Assembly: GCA_037157565.1 (NCBI GenBank)
Contig: JAZHRO010000026.1
Coordinates: forward strand, 32,168,501 to 32,232,500
DNA: 64,000 bases
Source of the DNA: Thalassia testudinum
Taxonomy: Eukaryota; Streptophyta; Magnoliopsida; Alismatales; Hydrocharitaceae
Direction of reading: 5' to 3'
Shown: piece after piece, positions 15,594-60,767 of the stretch
How the letters are laid out: each line of letters opens with the position of its first letter
Numbering within the stretch: position 1 is the stretch's first letter
Made by a program: the position numbers and the translations under genes
Notes under the pieces: generated by a model
What the model was told of the DNA's origin: nothing
Seen by the model: the letters and a program-made list of their open reading frames with translations, nothing else
Databases searched by the model: none

Positions 15594-15758
15594 AAGGTCG
15601 TCCCGAGAAGTGAATCAACTGACTGAAAAATAACCAATTCACATGTCTATAACTAGAGTAGCCACCACAACATATCTCTTGACATGAGCTCTTAGACGTT
15701 TTCGTTAGGTACTGTTCCGTACTGACGTATTTCGTTGTTTTACGTCTCCTTATAGGAG

Positions 15759-16265: not shown

Positions 16266-16367
16266 AGCACTGGAGGGCACGTAGGAGGCCACGGTTACCA
16301 GGCGGGAGGAGGAGGACAGCAGTCACGAGGAGGGTACCGGCCAGCACCTACCCGTCCGACGCAGAGT

Positions 16368-16934: not shown

Positions 16935-16943
16935 AGTATCCCG

Positions 16944-17612: not shown

Positions 17613-17621
17613 GAGTTCTGG

Positions 17622-18317: not shown

Positions 18318-18323
18318 AGCCTT

Positions 18324-18692: not shown

Positions 18693-18701
18693 CAGTGCTT
18701 A

Positions 18702-19070
18702 GTGTGCCAGCAGGTGAAAGCCGAGCATCAGAGGCCTGCAGGGCCGCTACAGCCGCTTCCAGTGCCAGAGTGGAAGTGGGAGAGCATCACCATGGACTTG
18801 GTGGTGGGCTTACCCGTTACCCAGCGGGGACACGACGCAGTCTGGGTAATAGTGGACAGACTGACGAAGACGGCGCGATTCTTGCCGATCCGAGTCACTT
18901 TGGGACCAGCACAGTTGGCAGAGAGGTATATCCGGGATGTGGTACGACTACACGGAGTTCGGCAGGAGATCGTATCCGACCGGGATACCCGCTTTACGTC
19001 CCAGTTTTGGGCTGAGTTTCAGCAGGCCTTGGGGACGCGGTTGAGGTTTAGTACAGCTTACCACCCCTAG
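18702..19070 (+). pseudogene. Integrase catalytic core, element A
   Basis: [20 protein letters not shown] carries the first catalytic Asp, and [14 protein letters not shown] carries the second. The core breaks at YHP-stop (TAG 19068), with a second TAG at 19080; element B has Gln at both. The catalytic Glu (SERT, about 19083-19094) therefore lies after the stops. The enzyme would join cDNA ends to host DNA but cannot be made here. Confidence 0.9.
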
Positions 19071-19115
19071 ACGAACGGATAGTCTGAGCGCACGATACAG
19101 ACACTTGAGGACCTT

Positions 19116-19865
19116 TTGCGCACCTGTGTACTGGACTGGAGGGGCTCTTGGGAGGAGCACCTGCCCCTGGCGGAGTTTGCATACAACAACAGTTATCACT
19201 CGAGTATCGGCATGGCTCCCTACGAGGCTCTGTACGAACAGAGGTGTACGGCACCCTTGAGTTGGGTTGAGGTGGGGACCAAGTGGGAGGTTGGCCCCAG
19301 GTTGATCCGGCAGAGTCAGGAGGTAGTCGAGCAGATCCACAAGCGACTCCGCACTGTCAGGAGCAGACAGAAGAGCTACGCGGATCGGAGACGCAGAGAG
19401 GTGCAGTTTGAGGTTGGGGACAACGTCTTTCTTCGTGTTTCTCCCATGAAGGGCCTGCAGCGGTTTGGGGTGAGAGGGAAGCTCGCGCCGAGGTTTGTGG
19501 GGCCCTTTGAGGTCCTGGAGCGGGTTGGACCCGTTGCTTACAGGCTTGCCCTCCCCCCGCAGCTTTCTGGCGTGCACGGCGTGTTCCACGTGTCCAACCT
19601 CAGGAAGTACGTGGCCGATCCCAGTCACGTACTGAGTCACGAGAGCGTCAAGGTGAGCGACAACCTGACCTACCCCGAGCGGCCAGTGCAGATTCTAGAC
19701 CGTGCCGTCCGCAGTTTGAGACGAAAGCAAGTACCCCTGGTAAAGGTTTTGTGGAGGAGCCAGCGGTACGAGGAGGCTACCTGGGAGCCTGAGGCAGCAA
19801 TGCGGGAGCGGTACCCGGAACTCTTCGCGGGTACGTCTTTTCGGACCGGCTTCGGTCCTCTTTGA
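19116..19865 (+). pseudogene. Integrase C-terminal region and chromodomain, element A
   Basis: LPLAEFAYNNSYHSSIGMAPYEALY and SYADRRRREVQFEVGDNVFLRVSPMKGL are landmarks of chromoviral integrase C-termini, followed by the GPFEVLERVGPVAYRLALP module. The last 60 residues (PVQILDRAVRSLRRKQVPLVKVLW...ATWEPE) are a chromodomain. In chromoviruses this domain is thought to direct integration to chromatin with particular histone marks. This segment is open to the natural stop at 19863. Confidence 0.9.
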
Positions 19866-19913
19866 GTTTGTTATGGTTATTTTGACGTCTTTTCCGCACC
19901 CTAGTTAGCGCAA

Positions 19914-19933
19914 GTTTCGGGGACGAAACTTCC
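19914..19933 (+). other. Conserved pre-LTR motif, no adjacent polypurine tract
   Basis: TTTCGGGGACGAAACTT with self-complementary halves is typical just before the 3' LTR of Tekay-type elements. The 15 bases between it and the LTR (19934-19949) are not purine-rich, so the usual polypurine primer is not obvious. Confidence 0.6.
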
Positions 19934-19949
19934 TTTGAGCTTGTTATAT

Positions 19950-27358: not shown

Positions 27359-30047
27359 TGTAACGACCCGATTTCCGAATCCCTACGAGACACGAGAATC
27401 GGACCGACTCAACTAATCCCAAGACCTAGTCGTCCAACGAGAAAGTAACCAAAAGAGCAGTAAAATAAACCACATTCAGCATGAATATAATTAGCAGTAA
27501 CAAAATACAGCAGTAAGAAAAGGAAATACTACAGTATGCACCACCACAACAAAAGGGGAATAAACATGTACATAACATAAAGTTTCGATAATTAAAGTAC
27601 AGGGAGTAACAAAGAAAACTACTCACTATAGTGGAAGAAAAGTACAGAAAGCACAACAGGTAACCCTACTGGACCCTACTAGGCCCAGCGTCCTCTGCAG
27701 CCGCTGACCCTGGCTGCTCAACACCAGGTCCTGAAAAGTAACGGGGGTAACACGTCAGCGAAACGCTGAGTAGAGTAGCAACTAAAAGCTAAAGAAGCAG
27801 TAGAGTGTACAGTAGCTGTTATATTTTTACTTTCTTTATTTACGTCTTTCTATTATTTCACGATTGATTTATTTCTCAGATCCTTCACTTGATCTCGAAT
27901 GTTCCTCGTGGGAACGATCTTGATTGCAGTCTTTTCCGAAAAGTATAAGTAACACGTGGTGCTCTCCTGGCCGGAAGAGTCCCCCGTGGTGGTCCTACCC
28001 TCAGTCAACCACCCCAAGGTCGCTGACAGACGTAACGGTGACTACGGCACGCTCGATAAGCGCACGGGTAGCTACCCCGCACTGGCATGCGGTCAGTCAT
28101 TTCCATTAACGGGTGCGCTCAAAACATAGCAAGGAACCAGTATAGGGCAGAGCCCTCTCAGTAACAGGGGTCCAACCCCTCCACAGTCCGCGCACCCTCA
28201 CTTGACTACCCTGGTTTGCCCAGTGGGCCTAACAAGTCGGTGTAGGAGGCTAGCAGAACCCCGGGGCCCGTGGGGTAGCTAGTGCTCTCCCTACACTAGT
28301 AGCTCTCCTCGGTACTGCGTACGCGAGGGCCAGCAAGTCGGCGTACAGTGGCCAAACCCACCCCGGTCTCAACCTGAGGGCGGCAAGCTCCCCTCTACAC
28401 TAAGAGGTAATGTGTGCTCTCTTTAGTACCACGTACCCGAGAGACAACACACTTCCACGTTTTACTTTCTCAGTTCCCTTCTATTCTCTTTTCCAGGAGT
28501 TCTACTCATAATTCCCCGTAGGGTTCGTGTTCTTTTTGTTTGGCCATTTTAGGTTTCACCGTTCCAGTTTTACGTTCATACAACCCATATTCTCAATCAT
28601 ATTTATTCATTCATAACGGGCAGCTATTAAATCAATTTACAGGCAGCTATTATTTCCTTTCCACTTTTTCAAGACTGCAATATTTATATATTCCACTAGT
28701 TTTCCAGTCCTAGGATTCACGTCGTACCCTAGGATCTATCATTCGATCTAGTTTTTCAGTCCTAGGATTCATGCAATGCCTTAGGATCTATCATTCAATC
28801 TAGTTTCTTAGTCCTAGGGTTCATGCAATGCCCTAGACTATATTAATTATTCCACATTTATAACAAATTATGTTAAATAAAATAAAAGCCACTCTACCAG
28901 CGAAATCGGGAGTACTGGGGGCGTGGTCAGCAATCCCGCGCGCCTCTACAACCCCCAAGACTGCAACGGAACGGGATCCTAACACAAGGATCAATCATAA
29001 GGAGTTTCTCAGAATGGTGTACAATCACTGTAAACGGGTAGAGGAATTTATTCTGGAAAGAACGAAACTCGAAACGCGGAAAACGAACTCCGAACGGGCC
29101 CTAAACGGGTCAAAAATGACGAAACTGTCCAAAATCAGATGTCTGGAACCTCTTCCAGACGTCTTAAAAGGTGGGTCAGGTCGTACCTCAGTTCTGCATA
29201 GTCCTTCAGACGTCCAGAAGCCTGCTGGGATGTCTGGCTTGGTTTCCAGACGTCCGATTGTCTCCCCGGACGTCTGGAGGTTCTCTCCGTCGTCTGGCAC
29301 TACGGCCAGATGTCTAATTCACGTGGGATGGCGACCCTCGCGCCCTCCCGAGCAGGACCTGCGCACACAAACACCGGCTCTCAGCACGACGGAACGCAGA
29401 AGAAGTCACGGCGGACGGCTGCATGGCCGTACACGTGCAAAAAGGAGAAGATATGAAATATCTTACCTGTCAGACGTCTTGACAGTCCTCCAGACGTCTC
29501 CAACGTCGTTTGGACGTAAGTCCAGATGTCTGATTCTGGAAAAATTTCCAAAACCAGGGCCCGGTTCGCTCTCCGCCCGCGACGCACGGCCACATCACGC
29601 CCCGTCCGCCTACTGTCCGAGCTGCAGCAGCCCCTCCACGACACCCCACTCCTGCCGCTCCCCCGCCGGCCAGCTCTAGCTGCCCCGGCAAGCTCGCACC
29701 TCCGTGGTCAAGCTTCTTCTTCCTCTCGCAACACTCCCTCCCGCACGCCCACTGCAGCCACTACTGCGCCCTCGCTTGCTCGCTCGCTCGCAAGGGGAAG
29801 GAGAAGAGAAGACGGTGGAGTAGGGGTGAGGGAGAGGGGGAGTGCTCTTATAGGGCAGCCGCGGGAAGAGAGAGAAGGAAAGCGGTGCCTACAGGGAGAG
29901 AAAACGAAGGCTGCGGGTTCAGTCTGCACGCGCACGCGGGCAGACGCGAAGCCGTACGCCGAAAAAATTTATTACCAGACGTCTGGGAAGGGTTCCTGAC
30001 GTCTGGCCAGACGTCTTAAACTGCTTTTGACGCCCATGATCGTAACA
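27359..30047 (-). mobile_element. Gypsy family-1 solo LTR (reverse strand)
   Basis: 2689 bp from TGTAACGACCCG (27359) to GATCGTAACA (30047), collinear with the LTRs of elements A and B read on the minus strand. The flanks CCTGT (27354-27358) and CCTAT (30048-30052) match at four of five bases, and the difference is a transition. No internal sequence is present. Open frames on the plus strand (28870-29999) run through the palindrome array and GC-rich leader and are not genes. Confidence 0.85.
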
Positions 30048-35786: not shown

Positions 35787-38341
35787 TGAAATGACCCTTT
35801 CCTGGGGTCATTTGGCCTTTTCGAAATCTGTAAGATTTTCATATAATTTTAAACCCCCTTGGATTTTGTCTTGAGACTTGGGAGGAAGAGAGGATAATTG
35901 CAGGAGTATCCCCGCAACTTTCCTCACCCCACCATCCCTCTTCCATGACACCCTCACCTCACCTCCCTCATTGCACCATCCCTCTCCTGCGACACCCTCC
36001 ACCATGCTGCTGCCCATCTCTCGCCAACGCCTCCACGCTCCATAAAAGCCCCTCCCCTTCCCCTCATTCTCTCACCACTCAGCCGTTGAGCGAGAGGAGA
36101 AGAAGAGGGAGAGCGGAGGACCGAGGGATCGGAGGATTCCCGAAGGGAGCGAGGAGGTGCTGCTGTTGCAGCCGTTTCTATAGCGAGAAAATATTCAGAA
36201 ACGGTTCTGCGGAATCATTTTTCCGCAGAATCAGACGTCCGGAACAACATCCAGACGTCAAGCTGGACGTCCGAAGGTAGTATCAGACATCTGGTAAAGC
36301 ATTTTTTTTCTTCCATTATTTTCCTGCCAAAGTCCTGACCAAGTATGCACATGTGTCAGAGGTTGGGAGCTGCATCAGCACGAGGATCGAGGCAGTTTCA
36401 GATGTCTGGGATCATCTCCAGACGTCTAAAGGGACCCCCAAATGTCTACACTGAGTCCCAAACGTCCGAGGAAGGCGCCCCGAGCAAGGTATGCCTGTGA
36501 GTTCGTTTAAGACATCTGGGGACCTTTCCTAGACATCTGATTTCAATCAGGATTGGTGTTTTTGGGCCCATTCAAGGCCCAAACGAGGTCGATTTTCCGC
36601 AAACAAAACGTCTTTGGTTTCCGTGCGAGTTTCTCTATGTAATGGTACTTTGTTCGTGTCATTTTGAACACTTTTGACCTGCCAAACCATGTCATAGGTC
36701 TCCAGTCCGTCGAGTATACGAGACCTGCGGAGACGTTGGGAGCTACTGTACGAGCCCCCATTCCACTCGGTTACCCTGGTAGAGTGGTTCTTACTCTAAT
36801 TTCGAAATTAATAAAGTGCATGTATAAAATTAGTTGAACCTAAGATGTGAGATGAACTCTAGGAAGAAGTAAACGCATGCTTTAGAATACATCTATTCGA
36901 TTGAACCCTAGGTTGTGACATGAACATTAGGGCTAGAGAAGATGCATGTGTAGAGAGATGAATGATTGAATAAATCTTAAGTTGCCTATACTAACTGAAA
37001 TAAACTACGTTATGAGTAGAAAAATGAACTCGTACTATGGAAACTGAGATGCCTGTTCTATATGTAACAAACCAGATACGGAATAAGAAAAGTTCATGTA
37101 CGAACCCTATAGGAAATGTAGAATGGACAAGAATACTGTAGTACGGAGAACTGGATGGTTCTGGAACACGTCGCCACGAGCAACAGTCCGGACTTAGCTT
37201 GGGGAGGTGAGCTGACCTTCATATACGTAGTACCGAAGAGAGAAACTATCCCTTTTAGAGTAGAGGGGAGCTTGCCGCCCCTTGGGTGGAGACCTAGGGG
37301 TGGGTTTGGCCACTCTACGTTGACTCCTGTTAGCCCTCACGTACGTGGTACCGAGGAGAGCTACTTAGTGTAGGGGGGAGCTAGCCGCCCTAGGGGGCCC
37401 GGGATTAGGTTTGGCCACCCTACACCAACTCTTGTTAGGCCCATTGGGCAAACCTGGATAGTCGGACTAGGGCACATAGACTATGAGGGGCAAGACCCCT
37501 ATTTTTGAGGGACGAGACCCCTGTTCTGAGAGGGCAAAGTCTTGTGTTGTCCCGTACTGTATGTTTGGGCATACCCGCTAGCGGAAATGACTGACTACAT
37601 GCCGTGTGGAGTAGCTACCCATGAGCTTATCACGTGTGCCATAGTCACCGTTACGTCACGACCGTGACCTCGGGGTAGTAGACCGGGTATAGGACTACCA
37701 CGGGGAACTCTCCCAGCCAGGAGAGTGCCACGTGTACATCCTGCATCGCAGGAAAACTACAAGCAAGATCGTTCCTTTAAAGAATAAGAAGATTGAGAAA
37801 TGTCATAGAACTCGATTAGAGTACTCAGATCAATCACACGTAATAAGATAATTGGAATCGACAGATAATATTTTAAGCTACTTATTTAAATTGCATTACA
37901 TGTTTTAGCCACTACTCTACTCAGCGTTAGCTGACTCCAGATGTTATAACTTTGTACAAGTCAGGGATTCGAGTAGCCAAAGCCACCAGCTGCTGAGGGT
38001 GCTGGGCCCAGTCGAGCCCAGCTATAGTTTCCTTCTGCTTATTGTTGTAGTGAGTTCCTGTAGTTCACGTTATTCCAGCTATATTTACATCATATGTGTG
38101 CTAGTTTTTGTGCTGTGATGGTTGTGTTCTATACTAGTTCTGTTGTGATGGCCTGTATTATTATCATAATTGCCGTTCTTTTTCCTCTATTATCAGTTTT
38201 TATTTTCTACTTAGTTACATTACTTGTGTGGTTTTGGAATAAATGTGTGTTCAGTTATTTCTCGATGGACGATTGGGTCTTGAGGTTCGTCGAGGCGACC
38301 CGTCCTCATGTTCTATTGGGAACCGAGAACAGGCCATGACA
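35787..38341 (+). mobile_element. Gypsy family-2 solo LTR
   Basis: It begins TGAAATGACCC and ends GGCCATGACA (38341), with GGATC perfectly duplicated on both sides (35782-35786 and 38342-38346). Length is 2555 bp. It carries a CATAAAAGCC TATA-like box near 36041, an ACGTCT array at 36230-36540, stacked hairpins near 37480-37550, and the TTGGACGA-like 3' block. It is a solo LTR left by recombination between two LTRs. Confidence 0.92.
36230..36540. repeat. 20-bp phased ACGTCT array in family-2 LTR
   Basis: Units start exactly at 36401, 36421, 36441 and 36461. An earlier group near 36233 has spacings of 20, 12 and 20. Central CG is often TG or CA. Confidence 0.88.
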
Positions 38342-45622: not shown

Positions 45623-48369
45623 TGTTACGATCCAATCCTAGATCCCTATAGGATCCGAGATTGGCTCGCCTCGACTAATTCTAAGACCCAGTCGTCCAAC
45701 GAGAAATAACAAAAAATAGAAAATATTTTACAACCACACATGTAATATAACTAAGTAGAAATAAATAAGAGACATTAATGGAAATCAGAACAGGAAGTTT
45801 CAAAGATACTACATGCCACAAGCGGAAAAGTACTATAACATACATGCCATCACAACTACAACAGAGGGAAATAGAACAGAAATATAGCAGGAACAGCTAA
45901 TTTATGCCAATGGTACTTACTATTACAAAAAAAGCTCTGAAACAGAAAGTAATAACTATGGTTGGGCTCGGCTAGGCCCAGCACCCTCTACAGTTGGTGG
46001 CACTGGCTGCTCAACTCCCTGACCTGAACATGGTTATATAATTCGTGGTTAGCTAACGCTGAGTAGAGTAGTAGTTAAGCCATTTACATGTAATTTAACA
46101 TAAACAACAAGCATATAACTATTCATTCATTTCCATTTATCTCAACAAGGTGTTACTAATTCCGTTATTCTAATAAGGATCCACCACATTTCTTAATCAT
46201 CTTGTTCCCTAAGGGAACGATCTTGATTGCAATTTATTCCGTGATGTAGGATGTACACGTGGCACTCTCCTAACTAGGAGAGGACCCATGGTAGTCTTAC
46301 ACCCGGTCTACCACTCCGAGGTCACGATCGTGACGTAGCGGTGACTACAGCACGTGCGATAAGCGCACAGGTAGCTACCCCGCATTAGCACGCGGTCAGT
46401 CATTTCCACTAGCAGATACGCCCAAACGTATAGCACAGAACAGAACAGGGCCTTGCCCTTTCAGAATAGGGGTCTCGCCCCTCAGAAGTCTGCATACCCT
46501 CGCCCGACTATCCCGGTTTGCCCAGTGGGCCTAACAAGAGTCGGTGTAGGGTGGCCAGTCCTAACCCTGGGCCCAATGGGGCGGCTGGCTCCCCCCTACA
46601 CTAGAGTGTAACGACCCGGTTCCCGAGTCCCTACGAGACACGAGAACCAGACTGACTCGACTAATCCCAAGACCTAGTCGTCCAACGAGGAAGTAACCAA
46701 AAGACAGTAAAATAAACCACATTCATCATGAATATAACTAACAGTAAGAAAGTACAGCAGTAAGGAAAGAAACTACTACAGTAGGTACCACCACAACAGC
46801 AAAACAACATTTACCATATAACAAGAACTGCAGGTAAAGAAAGTACAGCGGAAACAAAAAAAAAAGCTACTCACTAAAACAGAAACAAAAGAGGTACAAG
46901 GACTGTGGTAAACTCTACTGGACCCTACTTGGCCCAGCGTCCTCTGCAGCCGCCGACCCTGGCTGCTCAACACCTGGTCCTGAAAAAGGTAACGAGTGTA
47001 ACACGTCAGCAAAACGCTGAGTAGAGTGGCAAACTAACTAAAGGCAACAGTAGAGTGTACAGTAGCTGTTATGTTCTATTACTTCCTTTATTCACATCTT
47101 TCAATTTTTCTCACTATTTCATTTATTTCTCAGATCCTTTACTTGATCTCGAATGTCCTCGTGGGAACGATCTTGATTGCAGTCTTTTCCAAAAGTAGAA
47201 GTAGCACGTGGTGCTCTCCTGGCCGGGAGAGTCCCCCGTGGTGATCCTACCCTCAGTCAACCACCCCAAGGTCACTGACAGACGTAACGGTGACTACGGC
47301 ACGTGCGATAAACGCACAGGTAGCTAGCCCGCACTGGCACGCGGTCAGTCGTTTCCGTTAACGGGTGCGCCCAAAGCACAGCACGGAACCAGGGCAGAGC
47401 CCTCTCAGTAACAGGGGTCCAACCCCTCCACAGTAACCAAACCGGGGCCTTGCCCCTCCACAGTCCGCGCACCCTCACCTGACTACCCTGGTTTGCCCTA
47501 GTGGGCCTAACAAGTCGGTGAAGGAGGCTAGCAGAACCCCGGGGCCCGTGGGGTAGCTAGCACTCTCCTAACACTACTAGCTCTCCTCGGTACTACGTAC
47601 ACGAGGGCCAACAAGTCAGTACAGAGTGGCCAGTCCTAACCCCCGGGTCCCTGGGGTGGCTAGCTCAGCTCTGCACTAAATAGGGGGACAATCGCTCTCC
47701 TTGGTACTCCGTACTCAAGGGCCAGCTCACTTCCCCAATTCTATTCCATTCGCTTTCCAGGAGTTCCGCTCCTACTTCCCCGTAGGGTTCCAGAACATCT
47801 TATGTCTTACTTTCCAGTTTCACGTTCTTACCAACCATGATCCCAATCATGTTTCTTTATTCATAACAAGCAGCTGTGAATTCAATTTACAGGCAGCTTC
47901 ATATATTCCTTTCCATTTTTCCAAGACTGCATTATTATATATTCCACTAGTTTTTCCATCCTAGGATTCATGCCATATCCTAGGGTCTATCATACAATCT
48001 AGTTTTCCGGTCCTAGGATTCATGCAACACCTAGGAACTATCATTCCATATATTTCTCATTCCTAGGATTCATGCAATGTCCTAGGTTCTAGTTATGGTT
48101 CCATACTTTAACAAATTTTATTAATACTTAAAGCCACTCTACCAGGTACAACGGGAGTAATGGGGGCGTGATCGGGAATCCCGCGTGCCTCCGCGACTCT
48201 CAAGACTGCAACTGAACGAGGTCCTATCACAAGGATCAAACACAAGGAGTGTCTCAAAATAGTGTATAGCTACTGTAGACGGGTAGAGGAATTAATTCTG
48301 AAAAGAACGCAACTCGAATCACGGAAAACGGAGCCCGAACGGGCCCTAAACGGGTCGAAAAAGACGATA

Positions 48370-48740
48370 CTGTGCAAAATCAGACGTCTGGAACTCCTTC
48401 CAGACGTCTTAAACGGTGGATCAGAGAATTACCTGTTCAGCGTGGTTTCCCAGACGTCCAGAAGTCTGCGGGGACGTCTGGCCTAGATCCCAGACGTCCG
48501 ATGGTCCATACGGACGTCTGTAGGTCACTCCCGCCGTCTGGCACAACTTCCAGACGTCTGATTCGCAAAGGATGGCGAATCAGCGAACCTGCGCATAGCC
48601 AACCCCCCCTCCCTCAGTACGGTCAGTCGACAAGAAGGAAGAAGAAGGCGGAAAACTCACCTTTCAGACGTCTGTATGATCTTACAGACGTCGACCTTGC
48701 CGTCTGGCTATCAACCCAGACGTCTGATTCTGGAAATTTT
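48370..48740. repeat. 20-bp phased CAGACGTCTG array, element B
   Basis: Units fall at 48453, 48473, 48493, 48513, 48533 and 48553, six consecutive positions exactly 20 bp apart. The pair near 48382 and 48402 is also 20 apart. Spacer sequences differ from unit to unit. Confidence 0.92.
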
Positions 48741-49213
48741 TCCAGAATCAGGACCCTGCTCGGCCTCCGATGGCGACGCCGCCCGCGTCGCACCTCGCGC
48801 TCCTGCTGCTCAGACCGCAGCAGGTCCCTCTCCGCGTCGCTCCGCGCCCCCTGCACCCTCCGCAGGCTGGCCAAGCCGCTCCGGCGAGCTCGCCCTCACG
48901 GCAGAGCTCCGCCCTCGCACACCGCACCTCCGCGCTCACTGCGGCCGCCGCTGCCGCCCTCGCGTCCGCTCGCTCTCGCGCACAGGAAGGAGAAGAAGGA
49001 GGGGAGGCGTGGCCCCTTTAAGGCCGCACGAGGAGGAGAGAGGGGGTGGCAGGCTGCCTGCAGCCGCAGAGAGAGAGAGAGGGAAAAAGAGAGAGAGAGA
49101 GGAATCGCGGGTCTGTGCGCACAGGCGCGCAGACGACTCTCCCGTGCGAAAATAACTGTTTTCCAGACGTCTGGAAACGATCCCAGACGTCTGTTCAGAC
49201 GTCTGGATGTGAT

Positions 49214-49271
49214 CCCAGACGTCTTAAAAGACGTCTGGGCCTCCTCCCAGACGTCTTAAAAGACGTCTGGG
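49214..49271. repeat. Two 26-bp perfect palindromes at the LTR end
   Basis: CCCAGACGTCTT-AA-AAGACGTCTGGG at 49214-49239 and again at 49246-49271. Arms of 12 bp with a 2-bp centre, close to the 5' end of the LTR on the element strand. Confidence 0.92.
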
Positions 49272-49373
49272 GCACGCATTCGTTACAATATAACAAACTC
49301 AAAGGAAGTTTCGTCCCCGAAACTTGCGCCAACTAGGGTGCGGGAAAAGGATGTCCAAATAACCATAACAAAC

Positions 49374-50780
49374 TCAAAGAGGACCGAAGCCGGTCCGAAA
49401 AGACGTACCCGCGAAAAGCTCCGGGTACCGCTCCCGCATTGCCGCCTCAGGCTCCCAGGTAGCCTCCTCGTACCGCTGGCTCCTCCACAAAACCTTTACC
49501 AGGGGTACTTGCTTTCGTCTCAACCTGCGGACGGCTCGGTCTAGGATCTGCACTGGCCGCTCGGGGTAGGTCAGGTCGTCGCTCACCTCGACGCTCTCGT
49601 GACTCAGTACGTGGCTGGGATCGGCTACGTACTTCCTGAGGTTGGACACGTGGAACACGTCGTGCACACCAGAAAGCTGCGGGGGAAGGGCAAGTCTGTA
49701 AGCAACGGGTCCAACCCGCTCCAGGACCTCAAAGGGCCCCACGAACCTCGGCGCGAGCTTCCCTCTCACCCCAAACCGCTGTAAGCCCTTCATGGGCGAA
49801 ACACGAAGGAAGACGTGGTCCCCAACCTTGAACTGCACCTCTCTGCGTCTGCGATCCGCGTAGCTCTTCTGTCTGCTCCTGACAGTGCGGAGTCGTCTGT
49901 GGATCTGCTCAACTACCTCCTGACTCTGCCGGATCAACCTGGGGCCAACCTCCCACTTGGTCCCCACCTCAACCCAACTCAAGGGTGCCGTGCATTTCCG
50001 TCCGTACAGAGCCTCGTAGGGAGCCATGCCGATGCTCGAGTGATAACTGTTGTTGTATGCAAACTCCACCAGGGGCAGGTGCTCCTCCCAAGAGCCCCTC
50101 CAGTCCAGTACACAGGCACGCAAAAGGTCCTCAAGTGTCTGTATCGTGCGTTCCGACTGTCCGTCCGTCTGGGGGTGGTAAGCCGTGCTAAACCTCAACC
50201 TCGTCCCCAAAGCCTGCTGAAACTCAGCCCAAAACTGGGACGTAAAGCGGGTATCCCGGTCGGATACGATCTCCCGCGGAACTCCGTGTAGTCGCACCAC
50301 ATCACGGATATACCTCTCTGCCAATTGTGCTGGTCCCAAAGTGACTCGGATCGGCAAGAATCGTGCCGTCTTCGTCAATCTATCCACTATTACCCAGACT
50401 GCGTCGTGTCCTCGCTGGGTAACAGGTAAGCCCACCACCAAGTCCATGGTGATGCTCTCCCACTTCCACTCTGGCACTGGAAGCGGCTGAAGCGGCCCTG
50501 CAGGCCTCTGATGCTCAGCTTTCACCTGCTGGCACACTAAGCACTGCTGCACGAACTCACCCACATCCCGCTTCATCCCTCTCCACCAGAACTCGCATCT
50601 CAAGTCATGGTACATTTTCGTGTTTCCGGGATGTATGGTGAATCTGGAACCGTGTGCCTCAGTCAGGAGCTCTCTCAACAGCTCCTCGTCTCTAGGGACG
50701 CACAACCGTCCCCTCAAGCGTAACACCTGGTCTGTGAAAGAGAAGTCCCCTGGGTCCCCTGATAGTACTCTGTCGCGCAA
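49374..50780 (-). pseudogene. Integrase with chromodomain, element B
   Basis: A 468-codon open segment. It begins inside the RNase H-integrase linker with MRDRVLSGDPGDFSFTDQVL. The N-terminal zinc module is HGSRFTIHPGNTKMYHDL...CLVCQQVK (HHCC). The catalytic core shows [18 protein letters not shown] and GQSERTIQTLE, the D-D-E triad, all intact. The C-terminus has AYNNSYHSSIGMAPYEALYG and a chromodomain ending ATWEPEAAMRERYPELF. This is the only part of the element without an internal stop. It is cut from the upstream pol by a TAG at 50781-50783 where Gln is expected. Confidence 0.9.
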
Positions 50781-50783
50781 AGA

Positions 50784-51776
50784 CTACAAGTACGGATCGG
50801 CCATCTGTCCCGTGATGATGCGGTCTATCAACTCTGGCCTGGTCTGCCGTGTCACCGTCACTGCCCCACAGTACCCTCGTAACTCTAGAGGTCGCCAACT
50901 GCCCACCTCCTCCAAAAGGCTCCAACTCTGTAACTGTAGACTGGCCAAGCGTGCGGGCGCCTTACGGCTCAAGGCGTCAGCCACCACATTGGCCTTTCCC
51001 GGGTGGTAGGAGATGCTGCAGTCGTAGTCCTTCAGGAGCTCCAACCAACGTCTCTGTCTCATGTTGAGCTCCTTCTGGTCAAAAAGATATCTGAGGCTCT
51101 TGTGATCTGTAAAAATCTCGAAGGTCTCACCGTACAAGTAGTGCCTCCATGTCTTCAGCGCGAAGACAACAGCTGCCAACTCTAGATCGTGGGTAGGATA
51201 GGTATGCTCATGGGGCTTCAGTTGCCGCGAAGCGTAAGCGACCACGTGGCCCCTCTGCATGAGCACACCTCCTAACCCCTGCAATGAAGCGTCCGTGTAC
51301 ACAACGAACCCGCCACTACTGTCAGGGATGGTGAGCACGGGAGCCGAGGTCAACCTCTCCTTCAGCTCCAGAAAACACGCCTCACAAGCATCTGTCCAAG
51401 CGAAAGGCACATCCTTCCGGGTCAACTGTGTCATAGGACGCGCAATCTGTGAAAATCCTCTGATGAACCGTCTGTAGTAACCTGCCAGTCCCAGGAAACT
51501 GCGAATCTCAGTGACTGAACGCGGTCTCTCCCACCTGAGCACTGCCTCGACCTTGGCGGGGTCCACCGCCAGGCCGTCTCCAGAGATCACATGACCCAAA
51601 AAGGTCACCTCCCTCAACCAGAACTCGCACTTACTGTATTTGGCGTACAGCCTGCGTCGTCTCAGAGTGTCTAGAACCATCCGCAAGTGCTGTCCGTGCT
51701 GCGTCCGATCTCTAGAATAGATGAGTACATCATTTATGAAAACCACCACAAACTGGTCCAAGTACGGTCTAAACAC
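50784..51776 (-). pseudogene. RT C-terminal half and RNase H, element B
   Basis: It starts at [23 protein letters not shown]. The RT catalytic pair reads FINDVL instead of FIDDVL (as in element A), an Asp-to-Asn change that should inactivate it. [12 protein letters not shown] leads to RNase H with [42 protein letters not shown] and [15 protein letters not shown]. It is bounded by stops at 51777-51779 (TAG, CG to TA relative to element A) and 50781-50783. Confidence 0.9.
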
Positions 51777-52124
51777 CTAGTTCATCAGGTCCATGAAAGC
51801 AGCGGGGGCATTGGTCAGCCCAAACGGCATGACCAAAAACTCGTAGTGTCTGTACCGGGTGCGGAAAGCTGTCTTGGAGACGTCGGTCTCCCTGATCCTC
51901 AATTGGTGGTATCCAGACCTCAAGTCGATCTTGGAAAACACCGTGGCACCCCGCAACTGGTCAAACAAATCGTCGATCCTCGGCAGCGGATATCTGTTCT
52001 TGATGGTGACCCTATTCAGCTGTCGGTAGTCCACACAAAGGCGTAGGGTCCCATCCTTCTTCTTCACAAACAGTACCGGGACTCCCCAGGGAGACGCACT
52101 GGGCCTCACGAAACCTTTCTCCAA
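51777..52124 (-). pseudogene. RT N-terminal half, element B
   Basis: [55 protein letters not shown] and [17 protein letters not shown] are the expected fingers and palm blocks, including the first catalytic Asp. It is out of frame with the protease segment because one base is missing near 52115 relative to element A. Confidence 0.88.
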
Positions 52125-52870
52125 AAGTCCTGCAACTGGGACTTGAGCTCTCGCAGCTCAAGCGGTGCCATTCTGTATGGCGCGGTGGAGATGGGGCTGG
52201 TCCCTGGTACTAGTGAGATCTCAAACTCAATCTCACGCTCGGGCGGTAGTCCTGGTAACTCGTCTGGAAACACGTCGGGGTACTCTCTGACCACCGGGAT
52301 GCTCTGGAAGTCTGCCACGGGGCTGTGCTCTGCCACCACACAAGCTAGGAAGCCCTCACACCCCTGGCTCAAAAGTCTCGCCCCCCGAAGTGCCGAAATG
52401 CACCTGAAACCTCCGTCCACTGGTTGCCCGTGAAACTCGAAAGAAGGCAACTCCGGAATGGAGAAGACAATCTTCCTCTCAAAACAGTCTACCAAGGCGT
52501 GGTAAGCGGACAGCCAATCCATCCCCAGAATCACTCCAAAGTCCTCCATCTGTATCATAATCAGGTCAGCTGGCAGGCTATGTCCCCCGATGCTGACCTC
52601 GCAACCCGTGTACACCTCCTCAGCTACAAACAGCTGACCACTCGGACCTCTGATTACGAACGGATTCTCTAACAGTGTATAATCCTGGTCCAAACTAACT
52701 GCGAAACTGGCTGCGACAAACGAGTGCGTAGCGCCGGAATCGAAAAGCGTGTAAACGAGTCTGCCAGAAACTGAAATCATACCTGCTACCACGGATCCCG
52801 ATGCTCTGGCGTCCCTGTGTGTTAGGGCGTTGATACGCCCCTCAGCCCTAGGTGCGGACGAAGCAGCCAC
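52106..52870 (-). pseudogene. Protease and pre-RT region, element B
   Basis: The retropepsin motif LFDSGATHSFVAASF is intact (near 52745-52720). GVILGMDWLSAYHALVDCF and [19 protein letters not shown] follow. The open frame extends upstream through a Gly/Arg/Gln-rich linker to the gag zinc knuckle, so gag and pol were one frame. It ends after a 1-base deletion at QDFWRKVS. Confidence 0.88.
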
Positions 52871-53374
52871 ACTCTGCGTCGGACGGGTAGGTGCTGGCCG
52901 GTACCCTCCTCGTGACTGCTGTCCTCCTCCTCGCGCCTGGGAACCGCGCCCTCTAGTGCTCTGCGCAAGAAGTATCTGCTGACCTCCTGCCCTAGACGGG
53001 CAGTCCCTCCTGACGTGGCCCGGCTGGCCACACTGGTAGCAGAGGGGAACCCGACTCCCGCCCTCAGTGAGTCCCTGCTGTCGGCTAGGCGGGGGTCCGG
53101 TGCTGGCGACTGGCCCCTGTCAAGGGCCCCCAAAGGCCACTGATGGCCCTGCACAGCGTGACGGCTCTCCTGCGGACGTCACGTGTCTCCGTTCTCGCCG
53201 GCCCTGTGAGAAGTCTGGCTGAAAGGGCCTCTTCCGCCCGCCATCGGTCTCTCGTGCGGACGGGTTGGTCTCCTCGTAAGTCATAGCTGCCTCTACCACC
53301 CTCGAAAACGTCGGCAGCTTCAGGGGTTTGACATATCCCCGGTCGCAGGACGGAGCCCCTCGGTGAACCTCCAA
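52871..53374 (-). pseudogene. gag C-terminal region with zinc knuckle, element B
   Basis: It contains KLPTFSRVVEAAMTYEETN, the C-terminal capsid region, then a basic stretch (GRRERRHVTSAGEPSR). An in-frame TGA occurs after AFGGP (near 53121-53123). The zinc knuckle CYQCGQPGHVRRDC, of CX2CX4HX4C form, lies near 53000-53040. It is shifted relative to the N-terminal gag frame by an indel near 53340. Confidence 0.8.
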
Positions 53375-54123
53375 AGGCGCTCCTCCTCAGTGGCTACCGA
53401 TGTCGCTGCAAAGCGGGACAGCTCCAAGAAACGCGTGCGGTACGCGCTCACGGTCATCGTCCCTTGGCGGAGAGTGTGGAACTCCCGCCTCCTCTGGTCC
53501 TGCCACGTCTGGGGAAAGTGCTGCTCGCAGAAGAGGGTGACGAACTGGTCCCACGTCGGCTCGTCCCTCTCCTGTCCCCGGACCGCCCTCCACCACCGGT
53601 GTGCTGCACTCTCCAGCTGGTACGTGGCAAAGGCCACGCGGCACTCCACCGGGGGGCGAAGGGTGTCGAAGATCTTCTCCAGCTGCTCAAGCCAGTCCTC
53701 TGCCTCGGTCGGGTCCTCATCCCCCTTGAAGGAGGGGGGCTTCAGCTTCCGGAACTGTCCGAAAAGCTCGAAGTGGCGCTGTAGGGGAGGTGCTGGTGCA
53801 CCTCCAGGCGAAGGTGCCTCGTGTACAGAAGTGTCGGAGGAAGGTGGGGGTGGCAGGGGCCCATCCCCTCCCTCGTGTCCAGCGCCGCGTCCATCGCGTG
53901 GTCCCACAGAGGACTCCCCCTCTGCAACCCCATGAGGAGGTGCTCGGGGCGGTGGGTGGAGCTCCTCTCGTACAATATCCCGTATCAGTCTAGCGAGGTC
54001 CTGGGCCTGGATGCCAGGGAGTGGTGGCTGATCCACCGAGACGTCAACGACAGCACGTCCACCTCGCCGACCTCGCCCTCGACCGCGCCCACGGCCAGTC
54101 TCGCCAGTCCCGCGACGAGGCAT
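53320..54123 (-). pseudogene. gag N-terminal and capsid region, element B
   Basis: The start at 54123 (ATG after AGGAG) gives the basic, Gly/Arg-rich MPRRGTGETGRGRGRGRGRR. IQAQDLARLIRDIVREEL follows, then a Pro-rich linker, and the retrotransposon gag domain: LKPPSFKGDEDPTEAEDWLE, VAFATYQLESAAHRWWRAV, FCEQHFPQTWQDQRRREF and RFLELSRFAATS. It ends by frameshift after GLRPATGDMSN. This is the best template in the window for what element A lost. Confidence 0.88.
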
Positions 54124-54289
54124 CTCCTGCAAGGAGACGCGAAAAAAAAAATGGAAACGTCAAAACAAACGGTACCTAACAAAACTTCTAAGAGCTCATG
54201 TCAAGAGACATGTTGTGGTGGCTACTCTAGCTATAAACATGTGAATTGGTTATTTTCCAGTCAGTTGATTCACTTATCGGGACGACCTT

Positions 54290-54301
54290 GCTCTGATACC
54301 A
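54290..54301 (-). other. Primer-binding site of element B
   Basis: Minus-strand TGGTATCAGAGC, three bases inside the 5' LTR boundary. Complementary to the 3' end of initiator tRNA-Met. Confidence 0.88.
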
Positions 54302-54304
54302 TCT

Positions 54305-56983
54305 TGTAACGACCCGGTTCCCGAGTCCCTACGAGACACGAGAACCGGACCGACTCGACTAATCCCAAGACCTAGTCGTCCAACGAGGAAGTAACCAAAA
54401 GACAGTAAAATAAACCACATTCAGCATGAATATAACTAACAGTAAGAAAGTACAGCAGTAAGGAAAGAAACTACTACAGTAGGTACCACCACAACAGCAA
54501 AACAACATTTATCATATAACAAGAACTGCAGGTAAAGAAAGTACAGTGGAAACAAAAAAAAAAGCTACTCACTAAAACAGAAACAAAAGAGGTACAAGGA
54601 CTGTGGTAAACTCTACTGGACCCTACTTGGCCCAGCGTCCTCTGCAGCCGCCGACCCTGGTTGCTCAACACCTGGTCCTGAAAAAGGTAACGAGTGTAAC
54701 ACGTCAGCAAAACGCTGAGTAGAGTGGCAAACTAACTAAAGGCAACAGTAGAGTGTACAGTAGCTGTTATGTTCTATTACTTCCTTTATTCACATCTTTC
54801 AATTTTTCTCACTATTTCATTTATTTCTCAGATCCTTTACTTGATCTCGAATGTCCTCGTGGGAACGATCTTGATTGCAGTCTTTTCCAAAAGTAGAAGT
54901 AGCACGTGGTGCTCTCCTGGCCGAGAGAGTCCCCCGTGGTGATCCTACCCTCAGTCAACCACCCCAAGGTCACTGACAGACGTAACGGTGACTACGGCAC
55001 GCGCGATAAACGCACAGGTAGCTAGCCCGCACTGGCACGCGGTCAGTCGTTTCCGTTAACGGGTGCGCCCAAAGCACAGCACGGAACCAGGGCAGAGCCC
55101 TCTCAGTAACAGGGGTCCAACCCCTCCACAGTAACCAAACCGGGGCCTTGCCCCTCCACAGTCCGCGCACCCTCGCCTGACTACCCTGGTTTGCCCTAGT
55201 GGGCCTAACAAGTCGGTGAAGGAGGCTAGCAGAACCCCGGGGCCCGTGGGGTAGCTAGCACTCTCCTAACACTACTAGCTCTCCTCGGTACTACGTACAC
55301 GAGGGCCAACAAGTCAGTACAGAGTGGCCAGTCCTAACCCCCGGGTCCCTGGGGTGGCTAGCTCAGCTCTGCACTAAATAGGGGGACAACCGCTCTCCTT
55401 GGTACTCCGTACTCAAGGGCCAGCTCACTTCCCCAATTCTATTCCATTCGCTTTCCAGGAGTTCCGCTCCTACTTCCCCGTAGGGTTCCAGAACATCTTA
55501 TGTCTTACTTTCCAGTTTCACGTTCTTACCAACCATGATCCCAATCATGTTTCTTTATTCATAACAAGCAGCTGTGAATTCAATTTACAGGCAGCTTCAT
55601 ATATTCCTTTCCATTTTTCCAAGACTGCATTATTATATATTCCACTAGTTTTTCCATCCTAGGATTCATGCCATATCCTAGGGTCTATCATACAATCTAG
55701 TTTTCCGGTCCTAGGATTCATGCAACACCTAGGAACTATCATTCCATATATTTCTCATTCCTAGGATTCATGCAATGTCCTAGGTTCTAGTTATGGTTCC
55801 ATACTTTAACAAATTTTATTAATACTTAAAGCCACTCTACCAGGTACAACGGGAGTAATGGGGGCGTGATCGGGAATCCCGCGTGCCTCCGCGACTCTCA
55901 AGACTGCAACTGAACGAGGTCCTATCACAAGGATCAAACACAAGGAGTGTCTCAAAATAGTGTATAGCTACTGTAGACGGGTAGAGGAATTAATTCTGAA
56001 AAGAACGCAACTCGAATCACGGAAAACGGAGCCCGAACGGGCCCTAAACGGGTCGAAAAAGACGATACTGTGCAAAATCAGACGTCTGGAACTCCTTCCA
56101 GACGTCTTAAACGGTGGATCAGAGAATTACCTGTTCAGCGTGGTTTCCCAGACGTCCAGAAGTCTGCGGGGACGTCTGGCCTAGATCCCAGACGTCCGAT
56201 GGTCCATACGGACGTTTGTAGGTCACTCCCGCCGTCTGGCACAACTTCCAGACGTCTGATTCGCAAAGGATGGCGAATCAGCGAACCTGCGCATAGCCAA
56301 CCCCCCCTCCCTCAGTACGGTCAGTCGACAAGAAGGAAGAAGAAGGCGGAAAACTCACCTTTCAGACGTCTGTATGATCTTACAGACGTCGACCTTGCCG
56401 TCTGGCTATCAACCCAGACGTCTGATTCTGGAAATTTTTCCAGAATCAGGACCCTGCTCGGCCTCCGCTGGCGACGCCGCCCGCGTCGCACCTCGCGCTC
56501 CTGCTGCTCAGACCGCAGCAGGTCCCTCTCCGCGTCGCTCCGCGCCCCCTGCACCCTCCACAGGCTGGCCAAGCCGCTCCGGCGAGCTCGCCCTCACGGC
56601 AGAGCTCCGCCCTCGCACACCGCACCTCCGCGCTCACTGCGGCCGCCGCTGCCGCCCTCGCGTCCGCTCGCTCTCGCACACAGGAAGGAGAAGAAGGAGG
56701 GGAGGCGTGGCCCTTTTAAGGCCGCACGAGGAGGAGAGAGGGGGTGGCAAGCCGCCTGCAGCCGCAGAGAGAGAGAGGGAAAAAGAGAGAGAGAGAGGAA
56801 TCGCGGGTCTGCGCGCACAGGCGCGCAGACGACTCTCCCGTGCGAAAATAACTATTTTCCAGACGTCTAGAAACGATCCCAGACGTCTGTTCAGACGTCT
56901 GGATGTGATCCCAGACGTCTTGACCGACGTCTGGGCCTCCTCCCAGACGTCTTAAAAGACGTCTGGGGCACGCATTCGTTACA
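54305..56983 (-). repeat. 5' LTR of element B
   Basis: 2679 bp, almost identical to 46607-49287. Differences include a 2-bp GA indel near 56770 and a changed palindrome near 56920 (CTTGACCGACG instead of CTTAAAAGACG). Open frames at 56070-56955 mirror those in the other LTR. Confidence 0.93.
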
Positions 56984-58582
56984 TAGAGTAACAAGAGTCG
57001 GTGTAGAGGGTCATTCCTAACCCCTGGTCTCAACCTAAGGGTGGCTAGCTCCTCCCTACACTAAAGTGACGGTAGCTCTCCTCAGTATTGCGTACACGAG
57101 GGCCAACTCACTTTCCATGCAAAAGGGACAGTTGCTGTCCTCGGTACCGTGTACTCGAGGGCCAGCTCACTTCCCTCCTATATACGATATTTGTTCCGTA
57201 TACATGAGTTCCTCTTCTAGTTCCCCGTAGGGTTCGTGTATTGTATTCATTTCATTTCATTTCACGACATGCATATCTCGTTGTTCACATCTCAATTCTT
57301 AACCATACAACAGGCAGCTCATGATTTAAAAACTGAAAGTAGCATCACATCACTTAACTATTCCTTTGCTAGCATTAAGGGTTCTAACATGCATATCAGA
57401 ATAGACCATGTGGCTCAAGCAATGTTCATTCACTCAATTCTGCCTTAGGGTTTACTTCATATCATAGGGTTCAATCAATTCATTCTAAGATATCATACAC
57501 TTGATTAATTAATTCATAATATTGAGATAAGCCACTCTACCGGGATACACAGGTGGAATGGGGGCTCGAATTGCAGATCTCGTCATTTTCGTGGGCCCCG
57601 TATACTCTACTGGATGAAGACCTTTATAATTGACAAAGTCACATCAAACGAGTTCAAATAGTATATGAGTGACATAAACACGTAGAAAACTCCGAACTAA
57701 AACCAACGATACTTCGTTTGTGCAAAACCGACTCCGTTTGGGCCCCAAACAGGCCAAAAACGTGTACTCTGGCTAAAATTAGACGTCAGGGACTAGATCC
57801 AGATGTCTTAAACAACAACAAAGACTCACCTTACTTTCCTGTGGCTTTCTCAGACATCTAAACCCCTTCGCAGCCGTCTGAGGGAGATCCCAGACGTCCG
57901 ACACTCATTCCGGTCGTCTGGGAGTGCAGTCAAACGTCTGACACTATCTCCAGGCGTCCTAAAGCACCTCGAAGGGTGCGCCACGTGCCTTTCCAATGTC
58001 CTGTACATGCGCATGAGCGCGGGTAAAAACCACGACACGTAAAGAAATTACATACGTGCATGCAGGCGTGTACAAAAGCACATGCCTCGGCACTCTGCAT
58101 GCTGTCAGGTGTCTGGCGCCAGCTTCGAACATCCTGAGGCTCCTCCAGACGTCTAGATAGCGTCCCAGATGTCTGATACTGTGGAAAAATGATTCCATAG
58201 AATGCCTTGCGAGCCTTCTCCCTGTGCGAACCTCCGCCCACAGGACCGCAGCTACTCCTCCAGCAACTACAAGAGGTCGCACCTCCTCTCCCGAGATCCT
58301 CCTCACACCCCCATCTCCTCCCCTCTCCCTCTCTCTACCGAGCTCCTCACTCTCCCTCTCCCACACTTCTTGCTCTCTCCTCCTCCGTCTCGAGCTCCTA
58401 AAATGACCTGCTACCCTTTTGGGTTGTTTAAGACATCTGGATTAGCCATCAGACGTCTGTCCAGACGTCTGAATGGAGGGTCAAACGTCTAAAAGTAAAA
58501 AAGAATTGTACCTTCTTTCCTTTCCGCACGAGCACACATGCACACACCTCTCTCTTTCCTCACCCCAAACCCTAACCTTTTC

Positions 58583-58592: not shown

Positions 58593-60767
58593 CCCACACC
58601 CACACCTCCTCTCCCCACTCCACCAGTCACCACCTCCACCTTTCCCTCCTGCCAGCTGTCACCTTCCTCCCAGCCACCAGCGTGGTAAGGGGGAGAAGAG
58701 GAGAGACGGGATGCAGAGGAGGAGAGGAGAGCGAGAGCGTGGGATGAGCTTGAGGGGAGGAGCTCGCAAGGGAGTCGTGGGAGCTTGGAGGAGCTTATGC
58801 GGGAGGAGTCGAGTGCGCAAGGAGGAGCTCGCGAACGTGGGCTTCGCGGCCTCCTGAAGCTGCCGGCGTCGCAGCTGCGGGCAGCGTAGAGGGGTTCCGC
58901 GTGGAGAAGAAGGCTCGCAGATGTTCTGTGTACTGGATATTTTCTAGTATCAGACTCCTAAAGCACATCCCAGACATATGGAATAGCAGAAGGACATCCG
59001 AAGCTAAAGCCGGACGACTGAAAGCACACTCAGTGCTAAGGTACGTGCTTTTTTGCGGTTTACGGCAATGCAAGCCTTATTGTAGGGATTTATCCAGCCT
59101 TATTTAGCTTTACGCATGTGTTCGCAAGAGCAGAGCATTGGAAAGGTGCGGGGTGCACCCTTCAAGGTGCTTTTAGATGTCTAGACACGTCGCCAGACAT
59201 CTGATCGTACCTCCAGACAACCGGAAGGAGAGTCCGACGTCTGGAACTCACCTCAGACAATTGTGGAAGGGTCCGGACATCCGAGGTAGCCGCAAGAAAC
59301 CCAGGGTGAGTATTGACATCTTTTAAGACTTCTGGGATTAGACCCAGACGTCTGATTTTGGACAGTGTGAGTGTTTTTGGCCCGTTTAAGGCCCAAATAG
59401 AATCGGATTTCTGCAAACAAAGTATCGTTGTCATTCGCTTGAGTTTCTCTACGAGTTTGTGCCACTTGTATACGGTTTTGGACTCGTTTGATGTGGATGG
59501 TCAATTGTATAGGTCTCCAGCCAGTTGAGTATGCGAGAGCCGCGGAGGCGATGGGATCTATGATCTAAGCCCCCATTCCTCCCATGTTATGATCAAATAA
59601 TTGAACTGCATGCTTAGAATAACTTGAATGAACCCTAGGATGAGAATGAACCCTAGGGCAGGAATAGATGAATATGGTTAAGCTATACTGTAAACTTGAG
59701 ATACATGTAGAACCCTAGGATGAGAATGAACCCTAGGGCAGGAACAAATGAGTATGGTTGAGCTACACTATTTATTGAGATGCCTGTAAAACTTTAAATG
59801 TACTGGTCATTTAATATGATGCCTTGTTAGTTAGAAAATCACGAGCTGCCTGTTTCAAGAATGGAAATGGAAATGTAAATAGAGAAATCTGAAAGTTTGG
59901 AATACAAAACGAAAGGAATACCTGCATGAACTCTACGGGAAATTAGTAGGAAAACTCTTGTAGACAGGAAGTGAGCTAGCCCTTGTGTATGCGGTACCAA
60001 GGAGAGCCACTGTCCCTTTAGTGTAGAGGGGTACTGGCCGCCCGTTGGGTTGAGCCCCGGGGTCAGGCCTAGACACACTACACCGACTCTGTTTGGCCCT
60101 CGTGTACATGGTATTGAGGTGAGCTACTTAGTGTAGGGAAGGAGCTAGCCGCCCTAGGGGGCCCGAGGTTAGGACTAGCTACCCTACACCGACTCTTGTT
60201 AGGCCCACTAGGCAAACCGAGATAGTCGGATGAAAGTACGCTGACTGTGGAGGGGCGAGACCCCTATTCTGTTCTGTTCTAAGAATTCAAGGCCCTGTAC
60301 TATTCCATGTTGTACCTTTAGGCGTACCCGTTAGCGGAAACGACTGATCGCGTGCCAGTGCGGGATAGCTCCTGTGCATTTATTACGCTTGCCGTAGTCA
60401 CCGCTACGTCGTGACCGTGACCTCGGGGTGGTTGACTGGGTGTAGGATTACCATAGGGGACTCTCCCGACCAGGAGAGCACCACGTGTACCTCCTACATC
60501 ATGGAAAAGACTGCAATCAAGATCGTTCCCGTGAGGAACAGGCCAGATCAAGAAATGTTTTAAGTGAATAAAGGAACAACGAATTAGAAGTACTTGGTTA
60601 AACTAAATGAAAATGGATAGTTACTTAATTGCATTAAATTATAACTTGTCTCAATTACATATAAATGGCTAAATTACCACTCTACTCAATGTCCGCTGAC
60701 TCCGGAAATTTTATAACCTTGACCAGGTCAGGGAGTTGAGTAGCCAGCATCATCGACTGCAGAGGGA

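Follow-up and report, generated by a model that had tools for sequence, protein, structure and literature searches.

Palindrome arrays in the LTRs of the window

The window, meaning the whole stretch analysed here, comprises 64,000 nucleotides of the Thalassia testudinum genome (assembly GCA_037157565.1, contig JAZHRO010000026.1, positions 32,168,501 to 32,232,500). Its named best protein matches are plant proteins, apart from one labelled Corynebacterium. The window contains two related LTR retrotransposons, elements A and B, together with LTRs that are older or more divergent (C, D, E, E2, and F). The LTRs of elements A and B are 2.7 kb long and their target duplications are 5 bp; the other LTRs largely have the same layout. 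Arrays of short palindromes resembling CAGACGTCTG lie within these LTRs, as follows.

Element B
46607..56983, minus strand: element B, Ty3/gypsy with a chromodomain; LTRs at 46607-49287 and 54305-56983, 99.1% identical; target duplication TAGAG
48381..48410, minus strand: 3′ LTR, separate doublet at 20 bp
48432..48433, minus strand: GT of donor-like CAG/GTAATT, just after the six-site array
48451..48560, minus strand: 3′ LTR, second presumed-leader array (six sites, exact 20-bp spacing)
48659..48660, minus strand: GT of donor-like AAG/GTGAGT, just after the first presumed-leader array
48665..48726, minus strand: 3′ LTR, first presumed-leader array, spaced 20/12/20, with three mismatches in one of its four sites
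49015..49025, minus strand: 3′ LTR, TATA-like box GGCCTTAAAGG, separating the U3 array from the other arrays
49164..49269, minus strand: 3′ LTR, U3 array at the LTR start, 20 and 12 alternating
56149..56258, minus strand: 5′ LTR, six-site array
56860..56965, minus strand: 5′ LTR, U3 array

Element A
12866..22640, plus strand: element A, a relative of B; LTRs at 12866-15578 and 19950-22640, 96.5% identical; target duplication CCCTT
12884..12989, plus strand: 5′ LTR, U3 array, 12/20
13119..13129, plus strand: 5′ LTR, TATA-like box
13453..13514, plus strand: 5′ LTR, first presumed-leader array, followed by AAG/GTGAGT (donor-like GT at 13519-13520)
13617..13726, plus strand: 5′ LTR, six units at 20 bp, the fifth (13697) with more than three mismatches, followed by GAG/GTAATT (donor-like GT at 13746-13747)
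13768..13797, plus strand: 5′ LTR, separate doublet
20678..20787, plus strand: 3′ LTR, six-site array

Other LTRs
29207..29316, minus strand: older LTR C, six-site array
36399..36468, plus strand: family D, four degenerate 20-bp sites where others have six
57851..57960, minus strand: family E2, six-site array
59174..59283, plus strand: family E, six-site array, with upstream sites at 58430-58491

The domain matches of element B run in the order gag, protease, reverse transcriptase, RNase H, integrase, and chromodomain, which is the chromovirus order. The match to the integrase core (rve) falls below the Pfam cut-off, while the H2C2, SH3, and chromodomain matches exceed it. Over 4,061 bp, the internal part of element A is 94% identical to that of B, the element whose proteins were scanned. 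From LTR size and domain make-up, both elements may belong to the Tekay/Del clade. At an assumed substitution rate of 1.3e-8, LTR divergence corresponds to ages of about 1.3 million years for A and 0.3 million years for B. Deeper in gypsy LTRs A, B, and C there is also a 51-52 bp tandem repeat of 2.7-3 copies containing CCTAGGAT (14080-14234, 21141-21295, 28696-28836, 47947-48091, and 55645-55789), which is separate from the palindrome arrays.

TATA-like boxes at 13119, 20180, 49015, and 56713 separate the U3 array from the other arrays, so the gypsy arrays lie both upstream and downstream of such a box, and the six-site array of element B is probably within the transcribed leader. By eye, boxes similar to that of element B occupy the matching place in the LTR alignments. 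The possible TATA box of family E (58583-58592) is weak, since its number of matches is equalled in 3 of 100 shuffles.

In the 3′ LTR of element B, 10-mers within two mismatches of CAGACGTCTG start at 48451, 48471, 48491, 48511, 48531, and 48551, a step of 20 throughout, with a perfect CAGACGTCTG only at 48551. The initial annotation had described six like units starting at 48453-48553 and spaced 20 bp apart with no exception; these positions are the inner GACGTC starts of the same 10-mers. The spacing holds, while the units are not identical, GACGTC being present in five of the six and GCCGTC at 48533. The same is true of the two further arrays it had pointed to. The array of element A (annotated at 13619-13719) has six units at 13617-13717 with the stated spacing, of which four carry GACGTC, and that of family D (annotated as family 2 at 36401-36461) has four units at 36399-36459, equally well spaced, of which one does. 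Counting overlaps, there are 18 hits with at most two mismatches in the 5′ LTR of A and 20 in the 3′ LTR of B.

Across the window, AGACGTCT occurs 58 times against 0.81 expected, a number reached in none of 100 shuffles, and 160 sites lie within two mismatches of the motif. The commonest distances between sites are 20, 32, 40, 52, 60, and 12. Runs of six sites with up to three mismatches each occur in six places at step 20 and nowhere in the window at ten other steps (15-19 and 21-25). These six places are homologous LTRs rather than independent events, and the 5′ LTR of element A is missing from them because its fifth unit exceeds three mismatches.

The palindrome doublet as the repeating unit

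The 20-bp spacing extends far beyond the window. Exact pairs of the form CAGACGTCTG-Nx-CAGACGTCTG were sought in 4.26 Gb of genome, with the reversed pattern as a control, and all resulting counts are lower bounds. Pairs at 20 bp occur in at least 22,560 places and pairs at 12 bp in at least 8,196, whereas spacings of 13-19 combined give at least 199 and spacings of 18-22 at least 22,833; the control gave 0 in each case. For spacings of 10-40 taken jointly, with each start apparently listed once, there are at least 50,705 places (control 2). Among the matches listed for this range (76 on the plus strand, all on C1), 34 are spaced at 20, 31 at 32, and 8 at 12, with one each at 22, 24, and 40. 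Over the spacings counted apart (12, 13-19, 18-22, and 20), the genome counts contain the sharp 20-bp peak that the initial annotation had named as support, and the refuting outcome it had set out, a distribution lacking this peak, was not found. The exact doublet has 0 matches in IMG/VR and 0 in prokaryote genomes, so no outside relatives were gained from these collections.

Partners were also scored in sequence that had not been selected for the motif, namely 14 stretches of 10 kb at a fixed offset. Here a site has at most one mismatch, and its partner at most three at the exact distance. A partner at exactly 20 bp exists for 32 of 36 sites, compared with 1 at 19, 0 at 21, 1 at 22, and 7 at 12. 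The corresponding figures for the window are 76 of 88 sites at 20 bp, with 0 at 19, 2 at 21, and 3 at 22, and one Sirevirus-like 5′ LTR has 20-bp partners for 7 of 8 sites. Samples that include loci picked for holding a doublet give 37 of 39 sites in four Sirevirus-like LTRs and 243 of 274 in all sequence collected.

Doublets are joined to one another in several ways. The step between them is 12 bp in gypsy U3 arrays and in the first leader array and 20 in the six-site array, and the Sirevirus-like family described below uses 12, 22, 52, or more. The unit is better described as a doublet, of which six palindromes in a row are one way of chaining. This bears on the earlier suggestion that a protein or nucleosome array reads one face of the helix. 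Since DNA makes a turn about every 10.5 bp, five 20-bp steps drift by roughly half a turn and the six-site run leaves a single face; the two sites of a doublet would lie nearly on one face. The 20-bp palindrome feature is a real cis feature, sharp and widespread, and far wider than the original observation.

Spacing is kept while spacers diverge

The units of one array, compared within each of 12 array copies out of 16, have an identity of 0.45-0.77 in the motif and of 0.20-0.28 in the spacers (measured on the inner eight spacer bases), the latter being near random. D, L007, L008, and L014 were left out of this comparison on account of lost units or a shifted register. L012, which has a one-base shift after its fourth unit, was included and has the lowest motif value. 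Altogether, 5 of the 16 array copies (these four and L012) have lost or shifted units. When seven representatives are compared with one another, motif identity exceeds spacer identity in 21 of 21 comparisons. Spacers thus vary freely, as the initial annotation had it, and the opposite outcome that it named as pointing to ordinary tandem duplication, spacers as conserved as the motif, was not found.

Insertions and deletions provide a second measure. Over 19 non-independent pairs, gaps open at a rate of 1.5 per 100 substitutions in the six-site array, compared with 9.6 and 10.2 for two regions that precede it. Directly behind the array the rate is 2.7, and it is 3.5 farther along; the separate doublet has 2.0, the first leader array 4.0, and U5 14.0. 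The U3 array reaches 18.5, and its alignment shows that larger pieces have been lost. Because spacers are unrelated and indels in the array are few, it is the spacing, and not the spacer sequence, that is kept. The claim that selection acts in this way is further supported by the genome-wide 20-bp peak and by an unrelated copia family in which this spacing recurs. Register also survives changes in unit number: D lacks 40 bp in one alignment, or 20 bp together with the first site in another, and either way the register is kept. E and L012 have 20 where other copies have 12.

Within single copies, the motif is not spared. The 5′ and 3′ LTRs of element A differ at 9 of 178 bases in sites and at 85 of 2512 outside them, and those of element B at 4 of 198 and 19 of 2481, respectively. 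Sites inside single copies change no more slowly than the remaining sequence, which indicates that the constraint acts on transposing lineages. By eye, the LTR pairs of A and B show no protection of motif CpGs after insertion beyond chance (changed CpGs in sites versus outside: 3 of 22 versus 37 of 162 in A, and 1 of 24 versus 9 of 138 in B). Nor are outer half-sites better kept than inner ones, with 215 mismatches in the outer and 163 in the inner halves, of 1080 each.

A Sirevirus-like Ty1/copia carrier

The same motif is carried by a second family (family G: L004, L019, L022, and L029), which has LTRs of about 1.5-1.7 kb and sites spaced at 20, 22, 52, and 12 bp. Three of these (L004, L019, and L022) have a TATA box, which reads CTATAAATAGAG in L004, and their sites precede it by about 100-700 bp. 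A PBS junction, multiple PPTs, and a copia gag are given for Sireviruses in the accessible text of PMC2829016. The junction of the 5′ LTR and PBS in L029, CTACA-ATTGG-TATCAGAGC, matches the Sirevirus form CA-ATTGG-TATCAGAGC given there. Four GGGGGAG tracts upstream, followed by TGGGGAG-AT-TG at the 3′ LTR, reproduce the Sirevirus PPT layout, the comparison covering the arrangement of the tracts. A copia gag (PF14223, E 1.6e-9) lies between two LTRs that are 93% identical over 1,511 bp. Inverted repeats might suggest that L004, L019, and L022 are a DNA transposon or MITE, a reading rejected on the strength of the LTRs, PBS, PPTs, and copia gag. A comparison of a Sirevirus-like LTR with 12 gypsy LTRs, made with the motifs masked, gave no significant similarity (best E 0.15).

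One Sirevirus-like copy (L029:5428-6315 and L004:1-2241) combines gag, several PPTs, and both LTRs. Only about 640 bp separate its gag-like ORFs from the 3′ LTR, leaving no room for pol; judged by its sequence, this copy is a non-autonomous derivative. On C1, at about 131.7-135.4 kb, a gypsy-type array (L029:979-1863) and a Sirevirus-like array (L029:4143-4654) lie no more than about 3 kb apart in neighbouring insertions.

A putative host factor and competing explanations

The motif, its exact spacing, the unrelated spacers, the low number of indels, the position near a TATA-like box, and the presence in two carrier families without detected homology are all observed. They are best read, and with a probability that we place a little above even, as the mark of a double-stranded DNA binding site for a putative host factor acting as a dimer of dimers. 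The site would be the doublet, two palindromes of 10-12 bp with centres 20 bp apart. One dimer would bind each palindrome, and two dimers would pair across about two helical turns to form a tetramer. By chaining doublets, LTRs would obtain stronger binding, and the outcome might be control of LTR transcription, either by activation or by escape from silencing. The ACGT core of the motif makes it a candidate bZIP site. A single bZIP for all repeated motifs of this kind is disfavoured by the central spacer bases in several other Sirevirus motifs, as given in the part of PMC2829016 consulted. Several observations count against a host factor: the lost or shifted units in 5 of 16 copies, the low indel rate shared with the regions behind the six-site array, the lack of sparing within single copies, and the position of many gypsy arrays downstream of the TATA-like box, where a role in RNA is possible.

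The arrays could instead be plain tandem duplications whose spacers have diverged, the spacing being left over since indels are rarer than substitutions. The U3 arrays are indeed partly 32-bp tandem repeats, the copy number of a few families makes up part of the sharp genome-wide peak, and many off-grid cases among the matches listed resemble 1-bp deletions by eye. Yet the spacers of the six-site array are as unlike one another as random DNA while the motifs are not, indels in the array are depleted relative to its upstream neighbours, the register survives the unit changes in D, E, and L012, and the same 20-bp pairs recur in an unrelated family. This explanation is already weakened, and we regard it as improbable. 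A binder might also be encoded by the elements themselves or by a related mobile element, as an anti-silencing or integration factor. VANC proteins in Arabidopsis offer a precedent, binding dense, short repeated motifs in non-coding regions of transposable elements, according to the portion of PMC5735166 available. Element B, however, has five ORFs of at least 180 aa between its LTRs, of which the four scanned match gag, protease, reverse transcriptase/RNase H, and integrase-chromodomain and the fifth is antisense to gag. The motif is moreover common to a copia and a gypsy family, and an element-encoded binder seems distinctly improbable.

Two further alternatives place the function in the transcript. 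Palindromes could form hairpins that serve dimerisation, packaging, or small-RNA production, the last of which has been proposed for maize Sirevirus palindromes; these are structured small-RNA hotspots in the sections seen of PMC5311732 and PMC10760457. For six array pieces, the fold is more stable than that of shuffled sequences (z -3.20, -3.15, -9.10, -8.48, -3.51, and -6.75), as would be expected of any palindrome array. A stricter set of 19 doublets shows covariation at one of the ten motif positions (p 0.029). Across 9 array copies, none of 15 site pairings covaries (lowest p 0.13), and six self-pairings reach a lowest p of 0.11. The spacers of 46 de-duplicated 20-bp pairs exceed chance complementarity at the outermost base alone (23 versus 17.5, p 0.044). 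Motif changes are one-sided in 96 cases and compensated in 5, a count in which the selection of sites with at most two mismatches disfavours seeing double changes. Hairpins, in addition, do not demand exactly 20 bp over 19 or 21. Spacer symmetry, compensation, and covariation thus lend little support to hairpins as the selected feature, despite strong folding. RNA roles are only weakened by this, since the sample is small and partly consists of loci chosen for a doublet, and we consider them unlikely. The presumed-leader arrays might alternatively define small exons. Every gypsy row aligned has a donor-like site behind the leader array in question, 11 of 11 for the first (scores 10.0-13.5) and 12 of 12 for the second (11.0-13.5); by eye, 10 of 12 rows also have a CAG at the corresponding position ahead of the second array. 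This suggests leader introns inside the LTR, with exons that would largely consist of palindrome arrays. In random 39-base windows, scores of 10, 11, and 12 are reached with probabilities of 0.235, 0.082, and 0.014, to be read with some first-array windows exceeding 39 bases and with rows that are related; two of the 11 donors behind the first array have a score of 10.0, attained by 23.5% of such windows. The U3 arrays and the Sirevirus-like arrays examined precede the TATA box, one doublet is located past the donor, and a splicing role is very improbable.

If the doublet is indeed the site of a host factor, a broader possibility follows, which we advance tentatively and consider doubtful. Ty1/copia Sireviruses and Ty3/gypsy chromoviruses may each have recruited, independently of one another, a single factor that reads doublets at exactly 20 bp. 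Motif and spacing would then form a shared cis code by which the host could switch or silence a large part of its genome in concert. Two unrelated kinds of retrotransposon carry the same 20-bp-paired site, which suggests that both may have borrowed one host DNA-binding protein for their own control. This would amount to convergent use of a host factor by unrelated retrotransposons. A strict spacing rule common to two superfamilies supplies a 30-bp probe with clear spacing controls, which makes it directly testable what binds and how binding would affect the activity or silencing of LTRs.

Comparison with known systems

Several known systems have features in common with these arrays. In the Drosophila gypsy element, repeated DNA sites for the host protein Su(Hw) lie in the transcribed leader of a retroelement. 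The Su(Hw) array belongs to an insect element, has a motif other than CAGACGTCTG, and is irregularly spaced. The VANC targets of VANDAL DNA transposons, as presented in the part of PMC5735166 seen, are likewise dense, short repeated motifs in non-coding regions, and protein binding has been shown for VANC. They differ in consisting of YAGTATTAY in one orientation, in having a binder encoded by the transposable element, and in belonging to DNA transposons. The palindrome-rich cis region of maize Sireviruses (Bousios et al. 2016), known here through passages of the citing papers PMC5311732 and PMC10760457, resembles the present arrays as a regulatory cluster of LTR palindromes able to fold, but its motif is CACCGGACNNNGTCCGGTG. 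Palindromes have also been reported as insertion targets of LTR retrotransposons, going by the title of PMC6911290. Among the papers listed on the motif, on Sirevirus palindromes, on palindromes in Tekay elements or chromoviruses, and on palindromic LTR spacing, no title or abstract opening describes shared 20-bp palindrome doublets, and the literature covered, seen in part, names no binder of Sirevirus palindromes.

The closest counterparts are the repeated motif (RM) boxes that Bousios et al. (2010; PMC2829016) described in 13 Sireviruses, clustered in the LTR before the TATA box. In the text available, the RM is called Sirevirus-specific and absent from classic Ty1/copia elements. RM boxes are short palindromes with dyad symmetry, present in at least eight copies per element. 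The arrays described here have at least eight copies per element as well, and CAGACGTCTG is its own reverse complement. Within the 10 bp common to both, the Usier RM given there, GTCGGACGTCCGAC, and CAGACGTCTG are a single base apart in each half; the mixed forms CGGACGTCTG and CAGACGTCCG occur in Thalassia testudinum. With respect to the CGG-CCG signature of RM boxes, position 2 is A in 163 and G in 37, and position 9 is T in 162 and C in 42, of 216 sites each; the motif is mainly CAG-CTG, with CGG-CCG forms a minority. Position upstream of a TATA box holds for the Sirevirus-like family and the gypsy U3 arrays. It does not hold for the other gypsy arrays, some of which lie downstream of a TATA-like box, unlike the RM boxes in the text seen. 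Most carriers examined here, including element B and its relative A, are Ty3/gypsy, and only family G fits a Sirevirus carrier. No fixed RM spacing was found in the available text of PMC2829016, where 'interval' and 'bp apart' are absent and 'spacing' appears once, in a reference title. Palindromic repeated motifs in Sirevirus LTRs are thus already known from PMC2829016. As far as searched, their carriage by gypsy chromoviruses, their sharing across superfamilies, and the 20-bp rule are new.
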